From a virus: a stretch of DNA of 22,203 nt. The translations under genes were made by a program, and so were the position numbers. The DNA lies in the IMG/VR virus record IMGVR_UViG_3300028025_001450, positions 1-22,203 of that record. One strand, given 5' to 3'. The notes beneath the pieces were generated by a model. It saw nothing but the letters and a program-made list of their open reading frames with translations. It searched no databases and was not told the origin of the DNA. How positions within the stretch are numbered: position 1 is the stretch's first letter; every line of letters begins with the position of its first letter. Positions 5,683 through 12,893 of this stretch are shown here, in pieces.

Positions 5683-6093
5683 TTAAAGTTTGATTATCAT
5701 TTCTTTGTTGTAACTATCCCCTTCTTGGTATCCTATTTCTTTGTACACATTCACCAATGAGGGGTGCTTGATTAATGCATACACATATTTGAACCCAAGA
5801 TTCTCGCAAGCCTTTGTCAATATCTGTATCAACAATTCAAGGGCTTGCTTTCTTTCGGGTTTCTTTTTGTATTGTTTGTTCGATATGATCCAATCCACCC
5901 ATGCGGCGCTTGAGTTGGTGGTGTAAAAGAACCCAGCACACACAGGTGTGTCGTCGTCTAGCACAATGATACCACTCAATCCACCTTCTGGCAGGAAGTC
6001 TTTTGCCGGTGCCTCCCAACCCCAGTCATTCCACCATTCTACTAAAATGGTATCGTAGTCCGTGGGGGAAAGAAGCCTAGCATGAAGCGCCAT
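5683..6093 (-). CDS. GNAT-fold N-acetyltransferase-like protein (136 aa)
   Basis: GNAT proteins move an acetyl group from acetyl-CoA to an amine. The fold is suggested by the order of elements: an N-terminal strand and helix, then the strands GLSGIIVLDDDTPVCAGFFY (38-57) and SSAAWVDWIIS (61-71), a long helix (ALELLIQILTKACENLG, 84-100), the strand FKYVYALIKH (101-110) and the final LVNVYKEIGYQEGD (113-126), which is the usual C-terminal 'F/Y-x-x-x-G-F' region. The acetyl-CoA pyrophosphate loop R/Q-x-x-G-x-G/A is not present: the place is taken by KQYKKKPERKQA (73-84). Activity is therefore uncertain. It lies inside the virion gene block, 3 nt before the ejection-like gene. Proteins of this type recur at this place in related phages, from memory. 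The substrate is unknown. Confidence 0.65.
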   Translation of the reverse strand: MALHARLLSPTDYDTILVEWWNDWGWEAPAKDFLPEGGLSGIIVLDDDTPVCAGFFYTTNSSAAWVDWIISNKQYKKKPERKQALELLIQILTKACENLGFKYVYALIKHPSLVNVYKEIGYQEGDSYNKEMIIKL

Positions 6094-6117: not shown

Positions 6118-6912
6118 TTAAGGATAACTTTTCATCACCTCTGATTCAAGTGCAAACAGTTCAACTTTGTCTGTATTGTCGTTTGTCAACGTGAATACGC
6201 AGTAGTGTCCAAGCAAACCATGAGACTCCGCAATGGAGTTCTTGATGTACATTGTGTATGGATCTTGAATCAAAGGAATGCTACCCCCTATTATGGTGGT
6301 ATCAACAATCAACCGGTTGATTCCGTTCTTCAAGTCAACAATGATGTCGGTCACTTCTCCGAAAAGAATTGGTGAAGAATAAGTTGGAGGCAAAGAGTAG
6401 TACAGGTAGTCACCAACAGAGATGATGCTACCAATTGCCACAGCATAGTTGACTACGACCGCGCTCGGCACCGTAGATACAATCGTTGTGCTTCTTCCGA
6501 TACCATTGACAGATCTGAGTGGGTATTCTGATTGACTTGCAGGGACTGTCCCAGAGTTACGGATGAAAGCGAAGTACGCTTGCTCCTTCTTCTCGAAGTA
6601 GTTTGGCAATATGAAACCACCAGACTGCAAATCGGTGTACAAATCCACATCCCATGCGTCGTCTCCCTCTATATTGATGGTCTTGAACAACTTGTTCACC
6701 AACGGAGATTCATTGAAGACGCTCTGCAATGTTGATGAGTAGTTGACACCATAAAATCTATTCCTAACGCTGTTGACGTTGTGCCTGTACAGGTTACCGC
6801 CTTTGAACGTGTAGAAATAATTGTTCATACCAATCATCCAATCGGGAAGGTAGGAGTAGAACGATGGCCACCCCTTTGCTTGTTCGCTATATGTTAGTGT
6901 ATAGTTTGGCAT
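6118..6912 (-). CDS. Conserved phage structural protein (264 aa)
   Basis: Probable virion or tail protein of unknown exact place. The N-terminal motif GWPSFYSYLPDWMIGMNNYF (residues 14-33) followed by TFKGGNLYRHNVNSVRNRFY is one I recognise from many Bacteroidota phage virion gene blocks, next to fibre genes. The rest is beta-rich, with SVGDYLYYSLPPTYSSPILF and a C-terminus ending ALESEVMKSYP. It has no signal peptide or membrane helix. It starts 10 nt after the fibre-like gene with an A-rich leader. It might attach or trim the fibre; this is inferred from position only. The stop is followed by a 24-nt gap carrying a TAnnTTTG box. Confidence 0.6.
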   Translation of the reverse strand: MPNYTLTYSEQAKGWPSFYSYLPDWMIGMNNYFYTFKGGNLYRHNVNSVRNRFYGVNYSSTLQSVFNESPLVNKLFKTINIEGDDAWDVDLYTDLQSGGFILPNYFEKKEQAYFAFIRNSGTVPASQSEYPLRSVNGIGRSTTIVSTVPSAVVVNYAVAIGSIISVGDYLYYSLPPTYSSPILFGEVTDIIVDLKNGINRLIVDTTIIGGSIPLIQDPYTMYIKNSIAESHGLLGHYCVFTLTNDNTDKVELFALESEVMKSYP

Positions 6913-6922
6913 GTCTTATCTT

Positions 6923-8218
6923 TTATACGCAACCGCACTGCAAAAATACAGGTGTTAAGTTAGTAACTATCGAGTTAGTTTTTGCACATATTGTAGTCGT
7001 AATTCCGGGGATAATGCCTGTGGTCTGAGGTACGTCATCGCAATCAATCCAATCAACATACTCTGTGAATGGAGTGTCGTTTGTGATTTCGTATGTACCG
7101 CAAATGTCTTCGCATGTCAATCCCGGAGGCGCTGTATTGACGCTATCAACCGCTGTTCCAGAACTATACGCGATAACAGTGTATCCGCAATCTGTCGCCA
7201 ATGTCAATGTAACCAAGTCACCCAAGTTTATGGGGATTGCAGACGACACGATGATTTCTTGACCATCACCGCAACGAGATACGCGGTAGTTGCTTCCGTA
7301 TGTGCATGTTCCAAACTGAACAATTACACCATTCTGCACTTGGAACCAGTCATTTGGAGGAGGACATGCGCTTGGTGCATGGTAGAATCCATCAGGCAAT
7401 ACAAACTCTCCGTTAACATCTTGGAATACCCAATCATAAAGCCCCAATGTACCAGCACCACCATTCACATACTTCACAAAGTATTGCTGATCAATGGCGT
7501 CAGAGCATGCAAGACCAGCATTTGCATTGACGCTACTACTTGAGAAGGTCATCAACGCCGTTGGGCAATAGGTCGATACGTTAAACTGAGACAATGGGCA
7601 TGCGCCAATCACGTTGATTTGCATTGTAGTTGGTGATGCTGCTGTCTTTGGTATAACAATGAAGCATGGCCCCGGTGTTGTGGCTGTCAAATCCAATTGA
7701 CCCGACAACACGGTTACTGTTTCGGTAAACGGAGTGGCCGTGAATGTGCCACCATAATACGTATACTTGTCTAGTGTGTGTGGGCTACCGGCTACGATAC
7801 CACAATCAGACGAGGTTTGACCCACGTATGTCGGCAAGTTTGCTGTGCCTGCCAAGTATCCGAAGTTCACTGAACTCATTTGGTTGTATACCACGCCGTT
7901 GTACAACACCTCGATGCCAAGAGGCACAGTGTATGGGTCAAACTCGATAACAACTGCACCTGTCGCACTGCCAAGTAGGATACCAATTTGGTAGTACCCA
8001 CCAGAAGCGGAATACTCAGATACAATGGTTCCACATGGATCGGCGCACGCAGGGCAACTCTGCTGTGGCAGAAGAACGCACGAAACCTGCTCTCTTACGA
8101 TGGTTCCGTCGGAGTAGTATCCGTCTGCTGCGCACAGCGTTAAGTCAGAATCTGTGAATACAGCGGTTGCTGATCCCAGTGATGGTCCGTTTAAGTAGTA
8201 TGTTGAACTAGTTGCCAT
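6923..8218 (-). CDS. Cys-rich fibre/adhesin-like protein (431 aa)
   Basis: Probable tail fibre or surface appendage protein used in host recognition. The N-terminal domain (residues about 6-60) has the pattern TYYLNGPSLGSATAVFTDSD, ADGYYSDGTIVREQ and CPACADPCG, which I have seen in many Bacteroidota phage structural proteins. A beta-rich domain follows (about 72-215) with VPLGIEVLYNGVVYNQMSS and GACPLSQFNV. A third segment (about 240-305) has QQYFVKYVNG, LPDGFYHAPSACPPPNDWFQ and VQNGVIVQFGTC. The C-terminal domain (369-431) has regularly spaced cysteines and ends CGCV. Composition is low in charged residues and high in Thr, Ser, Gly, Val and Tyr, as in beta-structured fibres. It starts 10 nt after the muzzle-type gene, whose C-terminus it resembles. 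A receptor is not predictable. Confidence 0.65.
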   Translation of the reverse strand: MATSSTYYLNGPSLGSATAVFTDSDLTLCAADGYYSDGTIVREQVSCVLLPQQSCPACADPCGTIVSEYSASGGYYQIGILLGSATGAVVIEFDPYTVPLGIEVLYNGVVYNQMSSVNFGYLAGTANLPTYVGQTSSDCGIVAGSPHTLDKYTYYGGTFTATPFTETVTVLSGQLDLTATTPGPCFIVIPKTAASPTTMQINVIGACPLSQFNVSTYCPTALMTFSSSSVNANAGLACSDAIDQQYFVKYVNGGAGTLGLYDWVFQDVNGEFVLPDGFYHAPSACPPPNDWFQVQNGVIVQFGTCTYGSNYRVSRCGDGQEIIVSSAIPINLGDLVTLTLATDCGYTVIAYSSGTAVDSVNTAPPGLTCEDICGTYEITNDTPFTEYVDWIDCDDVPQTTGIIPGITTTICAKTNSIVTNLTPVFLQCGCV

Positions 8219-8228
8219 TTTGTTTTTG

Positions 8229-11200
8229 TTATGAAGGACATCCGCATTCTTGAATCACTGTGATTGTGATATCTCCAGACATTACCATTGGTGGTGTCAA
8301 GTTTGATCCGCACAAGTTAGCAGACTCTCCTACAGGTATCGTCACCAATACTGGAGATCCTCCGCAAGTGTTGTACTGAACTTGACCTGATGTTTCGCCC
8401 GTGTTTTGGAACTCGTAGTAAGAACATGGGTCAACACAAGGACCACAGTCACAACATACATCTTCCAAACTTATATCCGAATAGCACAATTCTGAGGCCA
8501 CAGAGGCTCTGAAATCCCAAATGAGATACAAGTAGTCACCCGATGATCCTGCGTTGAATGTGATCTGGTTTACATCGCCTGTGCTCAAGATGGGCGAGCC
8601 CAAGTTTGAGGCGGCAATCAATGCATTGATACCAACAGTGGTATTCGGGTACAATGTATTTGTTCTGAGGTATCTGAATTTGTCATTCAGCGAGTCGAAG
8701 ACAAACGTATCAGTTGGGAATTTATTGGAAATGATAGCAACCGTGCTATTGTCTGTTGGTATATTCCCTGCCCCTTGCGGTCCGTTGGTGATGGCGTATC
8801 TTGAAACCAATGGGTTGGTCGTGCCATTGACGAACGTAACAAAGGTTGACTGCAATGGTGAGGTATAAGTGCCATCCACATATCTGTATTGCGCGTGAAT
8901 GGTTTGACCTCCGTCGCTATCGCTTGTCAACATCACCTCAACCACGTTCATAAACTGCTGAACAGGGCAATTGGCGGTCATTTTCAACGTAGCCAATCCG
9001 GTTGTAGTGATTTGAATCTCAACGGTGTTAACAACGTTGGATGTCTTTGTAAAGTTCAACGTGCCCGACGTATTGATAAAGCCAGTGGTGTAAACATTCC
9101 CATTGTAAGTAGCCTCTACCTCAAATGTAGATGCTGGATCTGTGCTTGAGAATACATAGTTGATGTCTACTGACCCTACATATGCACCCAAATCTACACA
9201 GTATGTGAATGTTGACCCCTCGGGTTCGAAGAAACTAAGCGTTTGGCTGATGCCACACTCAACGCAATCGTCTGCCGCTGGCAATTCTATCTCATTGGAA
9301 ACCAACACATACTCGTCCATGTAAGGGTCGTACCCTCCAAGTTTCTGCGTGTTGAATGATGTGATGAACTCATCACGGAACCAAGTCCTCATCCCCAACT
9401 CTGATACCACCATCAAGTTGTCATTGGTGTACGAGTTACCCTTGATTTGGATTACCGCGCCACGCTTAACATCGGTGAAGTATCTGTCGTAACCCCACTG
9501 AACATAACTCTCGGGGTTGAAACTGATACCATACTTCTCAACGCGAGCAATCTGAGTTCCAAGAACTTGAGGAACCGAAGTGATTGCACCGCCTGCGGCC
9601 GAGTCTGACAACAGATTCTTACCGGCCAATACGTATGATATCTTATCCTCTTGAAGTACAAGAACATCCGTCTCACGGGCATCCATCATGTAGATAGGAC
9701 CGAAAGAATCTTCGAGTGTTTTGAAATTCAATAGACCCAAGTTGAACTCGTTGAGTTTGTTGAGGTTTGATTCGTCGTTATAGATACCACTATAAGTGAT
9801 GTCCGCAGATCTGTCGACCTCTCTATAGTCTTGCTCGGACACAGCAGTAACCCTGTTGCCCAAGTTGAAACTTCTTCCAACAACAGAATCCCTGATCTTG
9901 TAACTCTCCGCTCCGTTACCGAAAGCAAAGCAGTTGAAGAACATTGTGTTTACAATCGCCGGTTGACCCAAATTGATATCTTGGTTCTGCACGTTTCCAC
10001 TATGGTTGCCATTGGCATCGATAGAGAAAGACATGTTGTTCTCGAAGAACACGTCTGGCAATGCATCGATTGGTTCTGTCTCAAATATGAGCGTGGTGTC
10101 CGCTCTGAATACTTCTACGTTGGCAGTGATACTTGACCTACGCTTGTTACCACTGAATGCACCAGAGCAACTGTTGGTACCTGTAACCATCAATTGCAAT
10201 TGGTTACTCGCCCCATCTCTAAAGAATCTGAAGTAGTTGGTACACAATGCAGTCGGGATATCTACGTTGTTGTTGGTGATGGTTGCAATGTATTGGTTGT
10301 CTACATCGCAGTTGTTACCACCGACATCGCTGATACCTTCATTCAATACCACCTTGACATTGTCGCCGTTCCACCAATCGAACATGTTGTCGTAATTGGC
10401 AGACGCCACCAAGGTTTTGTCCAAAGTATAAATACGTCTTTCGCACCTGTTACTCCCGTCACCGGTACCCAAACGCTCGAACTTAAAGTAAAGACGAATG
10501 CGGCTACCTGCTGGTATGTCGTAGTCCACCCAAGTATTGGTGGCTGTGTCGAACCTGTTCATTGGGTAGCGAAGCAATGGGTATTCGTTGGCGTTGTCTT
10601 GGTTTACTTCGATTTTACCCGGAGCAATAACAGCCAACTCGTCGTTGATTACGTTGAAACTATTGGGGCTGATCTTCATGTAGACACCAGATGGCACAGG
10701 AAGCGTCACTGACGGATCCAATGTACTTGGTATCGTGATGAAGTCGGCAGCCTTTGAGTCCTTCTCGAGTACGGTAGCATACACGCACTGACGAGTAGGT
10801 CCACTGCTGTCAGCCTTTACAATGAGTCTGTCTCCTGTTTCGACTTTCTTCGAATTTTCTCCATCAAGGAGGAAGTACGCATCATTTGAATCAGGGTCAA
10901 GAAAGAATATAGATGTGTAAACGGTCTCATAGTTTTCTTGGTCTGGCTTGATTACGAATTTATATCTTGTCGCCCAAGCAGGAGCCACCTGTGTTGGTGG
11001 TATCCACGCATAGATTGAGTTTTGGTTTGCAGAGTAGGCACATGGAATATGCACGGTGTTGTTTGGGCTAACCAATGCAGTAGATGATCTGTTGAACTCA
11101 TCCATGTACACGATGCCAATCTCGTAGTCCCTGTTGCTATGCAAACTTTGTGGGTTTGCAATCTCTTGATATGTGGCTTCTACAAATGTAACTTCATAGT

Positions 11201-12893
11201 ACTCGTACACATACTGAGTAGGAGTGGTGGTGTTGTCCACATACTCCATCGCAGGCAATTGGAAGCCAATCACTGTGCTAGCAGGGCTTGTGATGATACC
11301 AATTGGCTCATCAACTGCACTGATACCACTACCAAACTTAATCAAGGCATCCAAGTTGTTCGGGATTGCACAGTTTACTTGGTCAGTAAATGTGGTTCCG
11401 TCACATGATGTTGGATTGCCGGGGGTAGCATCAAATACTGGCTTAATGTTGGATGCCGTACCAACCGCTTCTTGGAATTCTGCGCTAGTAGCCAATGCAT
11501 ATACCGATGTGTAGGACGTGGGTAGGTAGAACGAGAATGTAACAGATATGTTGTCGGTTGTCTCCGCTGGGAATGGCGTGTCTCCGCTGAATGATTGGTG
11601 ATTGAAGGTAATCTCTACGCTGATGGCAGCGCCTGCCACCAAATTAACACCATCCAAATCAATCTCGAATACTGCACCGGGGATTGTTTGTGCCCCGTCA
11701 ATGCTATAAGTGCCGTCAGACACCGAGTCTGTAATTTCAGTCTCTCCGATAATCTCAGTAACCAATTGAGTGTAGTACTCAAACTTAACAGGCTGTCCGT
11801 CCTTATCGATAAGGTTGTAACCTTCTACGTAGTTACCATACATCAATCGGTTGCCCATAAGCGTTTGTGCTTTGGCATATCGAGGTACGTTGTCGTACAA
11901 TCTGAGTAACTCAGACTCCGGCAACACGGTGAATATCTTACTGTTGTTGAATACGTATGTGTAATCGGTATTGTTTGAAAGACCAAGGTTTGCCTTGTCG
12001 AGTTTCTCGATTACGCGGATCACATTCCCACTAGCTTCTTTGAAGAGCAAGTCAATACCAACAACAAGTGGGCCTCCCGAATTGTAGGTAACCTCAACTG
12101 CATTGGCTCTGTTAATCATGCCCTCGTTCAAATAACTGTCTACGCTGAACTGAAATGCGTTTGGCAAAAATGCAGGCTCAGAGAACTGAGATGTTGCAGA
12201 GTATTCGTTATCTGCGTATTGGTACCTGTATGCAAAGCAAATGAACCTTGTCTGCAAGAAGTTCTCCTGCCCAGATGTGATCAATGGTACAATTGTGGGA
12301 GCCTCTACCGGTGGCTTCTTGATAACCAAGATTGACTCAGCACTGAATTGGTCTATGTCCAACACGGGGTTTCCGTATCCTCTAGCCACATTGATAAAGC
12401 GCGGTGCATTGTAATCGTCGGTGAAGAACAACAAGTTGTCGTTCAAGTTTCCCGTCTTTACGATGTTAACACCGGTAATGAGGAACTGTGGATTGAAGTT
12501 CAATGTGGTGTTGGCACCATCACCGTCATCAATACTGATGATGTGGTAGGTCAAGATGCCCGTCAGTACATTGAACGATACAATCAAATCAAGTTTTCCA
12601 GTAGCACCAACGGGGAAGTTGGGGTCATGGACAAACCAATAGATGGTTTCTCTTTCCCCATCTTCGAATGCCCCGATACACTTGGCATCTGAACTCAATG
12701 GCGTTCCGTCCACGTATGACAAAGAAGTCAAAGGGAGATTCCCCTTGATGTTTTCTATGACACCAATCTCTGATTGCTCAGTAGATCCCATGCGGATGTT
12801 AAGCGCATCGATATATTCTCCATTAGGGACAAGCCGTTCATCAACGGACTTGTTCATTCTGCCTGCTATGAAATTTCTTGTTATGTTCGCCAT
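8229..12893 (-). CDS. Stabilization / muzzle-type tail protein (1554 aa)
   Basis: Very large tail-tip or tail-hub protein that probably closes the tail channel and carries the adsorption parts. The N-terminus RNFIAGRMNKSVDERLVPNG followed by EYIDALNIRM and IGVIENIKGN (residues 6-52) is the signature of the 'stabilization protein' family of crAss-like and related phages. Residues about 985-1175 hold the second conserved block: YSGIYNDESNLNKLNEFNLG, EDKISYVLAGKNLL, VEKYGISFNPESYVQWGYDR and YFTDVKRGAVIQIKGN. From about residue 1205 on a different, Cys-containing module begins, with ATYNGNVYTT and ANCPVQQF. The last 75 residues are Cys-rich (CCDCGPCVDPCSYYEF to QECGCPS). This C-terminal 350-residue part resembles most of the next gene product. 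No signal peptide or enzyme motif is visible. Confidence 0.8.
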   Translation of the reverse strand: MANITRNFIAGRMNKSVDERLVPNGEYIDALNIRMGSTEQSEIGVIENIKGNLPLTSLSYVDGTPLSSDAKCIGAFEDGERETIYWFVHDPNFPVGATGKLDLIVSFNVLTGILTYHIISIDDGDGANTTLNFNPQFLITGVNIVKTGNLNDNLLFFTDDYNAPRFINVARGYGNPVLDIDQFSAESILVIKKPPVEAPTIVPLITSGQENFLQTRFICFAYRYQYADNEYSATSQFSEPAFLPNAFQFSVDSYLNEGMINRANAVEVTYNSGGPLVVGIDLLFKEASGNVIRVIEKLDKANLGLSNNTDYTYVFNNSKIFTVLPESELLRLYDNVPRYAKAQTLMGNRLMYGNYVEGYNLIDKDGQPVKFEYYTQLVTEIIGETEITDSVSDGTYSIDGAQTIPGAVFEIDLDGVNLVAGAAISVEITFNHQSFSGDTPFPAETTDNISVTFSFYLPTSYTSVYALATSAEFQEAVGTASNIKPVFDATPGNPTSCDGTTFTDQVNCAIPNNLDALIKFGSGISAVDEPIGIITSPASTVIGFQLPAMEYVDNTTTPTQYVYEYYEVTFVEATYQEIANPQSLHSNRDYEIGIVYMDEFNRSSTALVSPNNTVHIPCAYSANQNSIYAWIPPTQVAPAWATRYKFVIKPDQENYETVYTSIFFLDPDSNDAYFLLDGENSKKVETGDRLIVKADSSGPTRQCVYATVLEKDSKAADFITIPSTLDPSVTLPVPSGVYMKISPNSFNVINDELAVIAPGKIEVNQDNANEYPLLRYPMNRFDTATNTWVDYDIPAGSRIRLYFKFERLGTGDGSNRCERRIYTLDKTLVASANYDNMFDWWNGDNVKVVLNEGISDVGGNNCDVDNQYIATITNNNVDIPTALCTNYFRFFRDGASNQLQLMVTGTNSCSGAFSGNKRRSSITANVEVFRADTTLIFETEPIDALPDVFFENNMSFSIDANGNHSGNVQNQDINLGQPAIVNTMFFNCFAFGNGAESYKIRDSVVGRSFNLGNRVTAVSEQDYREVDRSADITYSGIYNDESNLNKLNEFNLGLLNFKTLEDSFGPIYMMDARETDVLVLQEDKISYVLAGKNLLSDSAAGGAITSVPQVLGTQIARVEKYGISFNPESYVQWGYDRYFTDVKRGAVIQIKGNSYTNDNLMVVSELGMRTWFRDEFITSFNTQKLGGYDPYMDEYVLVSNEIELPAADDCVECGISQTLSFFEPEGSTFTYCVDLGAYVGSVDINYVFSSTDPASTFEVEATYNGNVYTTGFINTSGTLNFTKTSNVVNTVEIQITTTGLATLKMTANCPVQQFMNVVEVMLTSDSDGGQTIHAQYRYVDGTYTSPLQSTFVTFVNGTTNPLVSRYAITNGPQGAGNIPTDNSTVAIISNKFPTDTFVFDSLNDKFRYLRTNTLYPNTTVGINALIAASNLGSPILSTGDVNQITFNAGSSGDYLYLIWDFRASVASELCYSDISLEDVCCDCGPCVDPCSYYEFQNTGETSGQVQYNTCGGSPVLVTIPVGESANLCGSNLTPPMVMSGDITITVIQECGCPS

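Follow-up and report, generated by a model that had tools for sequence, protein, structure and literature searches.

The virus record analysed here, called the window throughout (its full length, 22,203 bases), probably encodes a crAss-like muzzle that is split in two, with the break point serving as a slot for an exchangeable, putative surface protein. Three genes make up the muzzle locus, all on the minus strand and successively spaced by 10 nt: the muzzle body P0002 (8229-12893, an ORF of 1554 aa), the middle protein P0001 (6923-8218, 431 aa) and the C-terminal part P0003 (6118-6912, 264 aa). An earlier, sequence-only reading had treated the first two as a pair of neighbours 10 nt apart, and both ORFs are present as described. 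P0001 does adjoin the muzzle body, but that reading missed the third gene. As P0003 is the C-terminal part of the muzzle, P0001 lies inside a split muzzle and not merely beside a muzzle.

P0003, which likely comprises the end of the propeller and the MUZ_C domain as a separate gene, matched Pfam crAss_MUZ_C (PF25729) at 1.6e-18 and 67.3 bits, above the curated cut-off of 27 (matched stretch 6556-6768). Residues 3-37 matched the last positions (1188-1222) of crAss_MUZ (PF25731) at 17.7 bits, below the cut-off of 27, and P0002 had no Pfam crAss_MUZ match at E 0.01; the one-gene muzzles of phi38:1 and elemoF are likewise without a PF25731 match. Since this cut-off was not reached, we term the window's proteins muzzle homologues rather than Pfam crAss_MUZ members. 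The muzzle body runs up to the strand ...GGYDPYMDEYVL (P0002 residues 1-1197, 9303-12893, minus strand), as marked by phrog_14478, which matched P0002 residues 6-1465 (1.7e-227), and by a body-end profile. The latter also matched the one-gene muzzle of phi38:1 at 816-1072 and crAss001 gp44 at 1050-1167 (E 7.5e-6; 3 sequences searched).

PMC10172136 gives crAss001 gp44 as a hexamer at the tail end with a ring-joining domain, a seven-bladed propeller, two Ig domains and a crass fold. It also describes the muzzle as highly conserved, its length varying through insertions into the crass and IG2 domains. Like the window, gp44 (PDB 7qok, 7qol, 8ckb) has a homologous MUZ_C part and body-end segment, but it is one chain of 1371 aa (Pfam MUZ to 1235, MUZ_C 1244-1333), whereas the window encodes the C-part on its own, with the gene for an additional protein between the two muzzle ORFs. 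Cellulophaga phage phi38:1 (gp097) and Flavobacterium phage elemoF (gp22) likewise have the MUZ_C part fused to the body: one gene encodes the homologues of the window's muzzle body and C-part, with break-point links of 6 and 21 residues respectively. By alignment, the window's break point corresponds to a site near gp44 residues 1198-1199, apparently a two-residue turn between likely strands, and from this alignment the break site would be a hairpin. The insertion point differs from the crass and IG2 sites, and the muzzle is besides split into separate genes. An intron was rejected as the cause of the split, Rfam having found nothing in the window.

To place the window among its relatives, we used five IMG/VR scans and named records. 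These gave 223 loci with a C-part, the window included; removal of 25 duplicates left 198 unique records, of which 160 are split, 34 fused and 4 without a body in the available stretch, counts that stem from queries taken mostly from split phages and do not give the prevalence in nature. crAss001 is too distant for the profile and stands outside these counts. Break point and gene order are constant: in 131/160 split records the start of the C-part lies no more than 4 residues from profile position 1, and in the 160 its gene comes next after the body gene or, where present, the middle genes. In the fused records (duplicates dropped) the link at the break point has 4-8 residues in 14/34, 11-22 in 5/34 and 43-157 in 15/34; this loop thus accepts insertions in unsplit muzzles as well. 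At 90% identity 108 records remain (83 split, 23 fused, 2 without a body), and in a rough tree of these, with many long branches, the split/fused label changes 4 times against a shuffled mean of 21.2. The split may have had a single origin. Frames are broken in some split loci, e.g. L014, L072 and L080. We found no structure of a split muzzle, and no description of one in the literature searched, a search with most subscription journals outside its reach.

P0003 and the C-terminal regions of one-gene muzzles align over their full length and share the same conserved residues throughout. This bears on whether the C-terminal part is by now an independent protein (e.g. an adaptor) that no longer completes the propeller of the body. 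Such independence would suit a gene with its own start and stop codons, and also the extra stretches of at least 126 residues that precede the C-part in a few records (376 in L116), although these speak for the split-muzzle reading as well. However, it fits poorly with the full-length conservation shared by split and fused parts and with the fixed place of the gene in the split records, and we consider it improbable.

Among GTDB genomes there was one match, a fragment in an archaeal MAG. The chromosome, labelled as a Candidatus Aenigmatarchaeota MAG (CP070801.1, 4713-7635), holds a truncated phage cassette with an A-D-C end (modules as defined below), a 305-aa N-A'-B' protein and a cut C-part, flanked on one side by a run of N; the phage piece is probably a chimeric join.

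The gap between the muzzle halves is filled in a modular way. In the window, the body tail (P0002 residues 1198-1554) has the order A-D-C: domain A (residues 1206-1315, 8949-9278), a beta-sandwich like ColG collagen-binding and GOLD domains; domain D (1316-1468, 8490-8948); and, closing the body, a Cys-rich C module (1485-1554, 8232-8441). P0001 has the order N-A'-B'-X-C': the N module (residues 1-60, 8039-8218), domain A' (61-226, 7541-8038), domain B' (227-306, 7301-7540), segment X (307-368, 7115-7300; 22 profile matches in the first locus set) and a Cys-rich C' module (369-431, 6926-7114), all of these lying on the minus strand. A middle ORF of 60 aa or more is present in 141/160 split records, and in 130 of the 141 the N module opens the first such ORF. 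As the other 19 lack one, a split muzzle does not depend on a middle protein. The architectures of the middle ORFs were N-A'-B' (72), N-A'-B'-X-C (27), N alone recognised (26) and none recognised (30), plus others.

Among named phages, Podoviridae sp. ctfjg026 (MW202828) has the three-gene layout (1551 + 183 + 267 aa) with a body 49.4% identical to P0002, but its middle protein, annotated 'putative glycosidase', matches P0001 over the first 58 residues only. Cellulophaga phage phi13:2 (gp120/gp121, 1613 + 241 aa) is split at the same point; it differs in having no middle gene, a gap of 3 nt and a Big_9/cadherin-like domain in the body tail. This phage is in culture, with Cellulophaga baltica as its laboratory host, and none of the cultured phages covered here has a middle gene. 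In phi13:2 and four relatives the body tail reads A-D-A', and seven bodies carry one or two N modules after A-D. In the window a 136-aa acetyltransferase-like gene (5683-6093; phrog_17252, and phrog_1758 at 8e-4) follows the muzzle C-part, and genes of similar length lie at this position in MW202828, elemoF and phi38:1.

P0001 might instead be an ordinary separate tail fibre whose gene is merely located here, its likeness to the body tail reflecting beta modules that are often reused. Fibres typically have modular distal parts, and A-type folds match many unrelated beta-sandwich proteins. However, the middle genes share one slot and nearly all open with the N module (see above), and no module was found outside the muzzle cluster in loci extending up to 8 kb on each side. 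Moreover, the complete middle unit is fused in frame to the body in two contigs, L032 and L043 (A-D-N-A'-B'-X-C). We therefore regard a fibre gene that is here by chance as unlikely, if less so than an independent C-part, and favour a slot within the split muzzle.

The middle proteins of the P0001 type follow an RBP-like pattern, with the N-terminal module kept and the distal part exchangeable, while in relatives both muzzle halves stay. There were two clear distal replacements, L044/L061 and L019/L213. In the former pair the body is 88.5%, the C-part 87.3% and the N module 77.6% identical, with no distal match. We compared distal parts across 122 loci with one middle protein, taking a score ratio under 0.1 as no match. 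The fraction of pairs (which are not independent of each other) without a distal match was 0/50 for bodies at 95% identity and up, 1.8% of 114 at 85-95%, 15.7% of 548 at 75-85%, 30.6% of 1612 at 65-75% and 15.9% of 3675 at 50-65%.

Other contents of the slot were noted in individual records. The L019 middle protein (6621-7991) has an N module followed by ~8 Cys-rich repeats of roughly 30 residues (counted by eye) that replace A'-B'. The body ends of L015, L017, L061 and L072 bear repeated LCYSxxxxxDACCxC units. An 81-aa N-plus-LCYS ORF is found in these records either by itself or fused in frame to the body, which looks as though stop codons are gained and lost at this place. L161, L170, L172 and L212 have four or more ORFs between the muzzle body and the C-part, spanning up to ~6 kb.

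The similarity between the body tail and P0001, from which the sequence-only reading had started, is real but partial. The motifs it named (YNGNVYTT, ANCPVQQF, YNGVVYNQ and GACPLSQF) are all present, and a Cys-rich end is common to both proteins. Pairwise BLASTP of P0001 against P0002 gave nothing significant (best 21.6 bits, E 0.16, in the C-terminal module; 18.5 bits, E 1.8, in the A region). Module profiles, built from 930 distinct ORFs that the first 89 sequences (window included) supplied, did show a relation. For the C module (the terminal 63 residues of P0001 and 70 of P0002), a profile seeded from middle proteins alone reached the window's body in the first round (E 4.8e-5), and in the reverse search a body-seeded profile reached P0001 (2.7e-6). 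An hhalign comparison of disjoint C and C' sets (27 and 30 distinct sequences) gave 99.1% and E 1.7e-18, with 0/60 column shuffles as high; these sets were gathered with a profile already holding both kinds, and the separately seeded searches are the less circular evidence. A against A' (124 and 97 sequences) gave 87.3% and E 3.8e-6 across 49 columns; the YNG motif is in register, and 0/60 column shuffles scored as high. The value was 93.8% in an earlier sequence set.

The remainder of P0001 has a different composition. The same order of elements had been claimed along both proteins, and for the A/A' core and C/C' this holds, but the 'second beta segment' is not common to them. Domain D scored no better than shuffles against B' (hhalign 0.1%; 50/60 shuffles as high) or X (0.2%; 25/60), and reached 3.8% against A' (1/60). 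When the two regions were aligned whole, the C module alone aligned (94.2%, 71 columns). The module profiles found no counterpart of the N module in the window's body; N instead matched B' (86.5%; 0/60 shuffles as high), and P0001 thus has its own internal repeat. With the second segment not shared and N extra, P0001 is not a copy of the whole body end.

These results also weigh on the proposal that P0001 is a duplicate of the C-terminal 350 residues of the muzzle, a free-standing copy that may exchange sequence with its parent. It draws on the adjacency of the genes and on A/A' and C/C' being homologous and in the same order, but leaves D unpartnered and N unaccounted for. The C modules also argue against it. 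In a tree of 69 of them (few columns, many open forks) the window's body copy groups with body copies and its middle copy with middle copies, with 2 body/middle label changes against 21.8 in shuffles; body and middle copies do not visibly exchange sequence. Body and middle ORF alike carry a C module in 25 of the 160 split records, the body alone in 13 (fused middle units in two cases), a middle ORF alone in 10 and neither in 112, so that modules come and go separately. A duplication of this kind is thus improbable. The results do support a unit that is found either fused to the body or encoded by its own gene; they do not support a simple duplication of all 350 C-terminal residues.

Predicted folds were compared for the same regions; the outcome that would have refuted the sequence-only reading, an absent profile score together with different folds, did not arise. 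AlphaFold2 models had a pLDDT of 89.1 for P0001 (29 sequences) and 88.2 for the body tail (38 sequences). A second look at the models against the PDB with VIA gave the domain-level likeness, with other model parts barely covered. Domain A (model 13-114) matched the ColG collagen-binding domain 1nqj_A with VIA-align 2 Z 11.2 over 94 residues at 2.5 A, and A' (model 58-218) matched the same chain with Z 7.8 over 92 residues at 2.6 A. Since Z values below 8 can reflect no more than a common arrangement, it is mainly the profile match that supports A'. Both match lists also contain SIDT1/2 and GOLD domains, and other folds in them tie with ColG. ColG collagen-binding and GOLD domains have a beta-sandwich arrangement as in A and A', but identity is low and a shared fold shows no function. 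Foldseek found nothing at E 0.001 with the P0001 model and six low-TM multi-domain matches with the body-tail model. P0001 had no match in Pfam or PHROGs, its 29 homologues gave just weak, scattered matches there, and Pfam matches on the 38 body tails were also scattered (G8 in 4/38). A PDB sequence search with P0003, the phi38:1 muzzle and the A1 profile returned nothing relevant.

We propose that the muzzle, at the tail tip, is split into two chains, P0002 and P0003, at one loop near the end of the propeller. That loop would be the insertion site, at which the body would have gained its tail A-D(-C) and where a separate, exchangeable P0001 (N-A'-B'-X-C') is encoded between the muzzle halves. 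The body and P0003 would still fold jointly into a single propeller and ring-joining unit, to which P0001 would attach through the N module, the Cys-rich ends or both. Distal domains, A' and B' among them, would bind the host surface, the adhesive part changing while the tail-closing machine stays. For one clade of crAss-like phages, we lean slightly towards a two-chain propeller, broken at one hairpin, that houses adhesin genes which are fused to either half, freed and swapped.

If the halves assemble, a gatekeeping tail machine would stay fixed while the surface-contacting part is swapped gene by gene. For annotators, the short 'structural protein' after the muzzle and the variable gene preceding it would then both be assigned to the muzzle locus.
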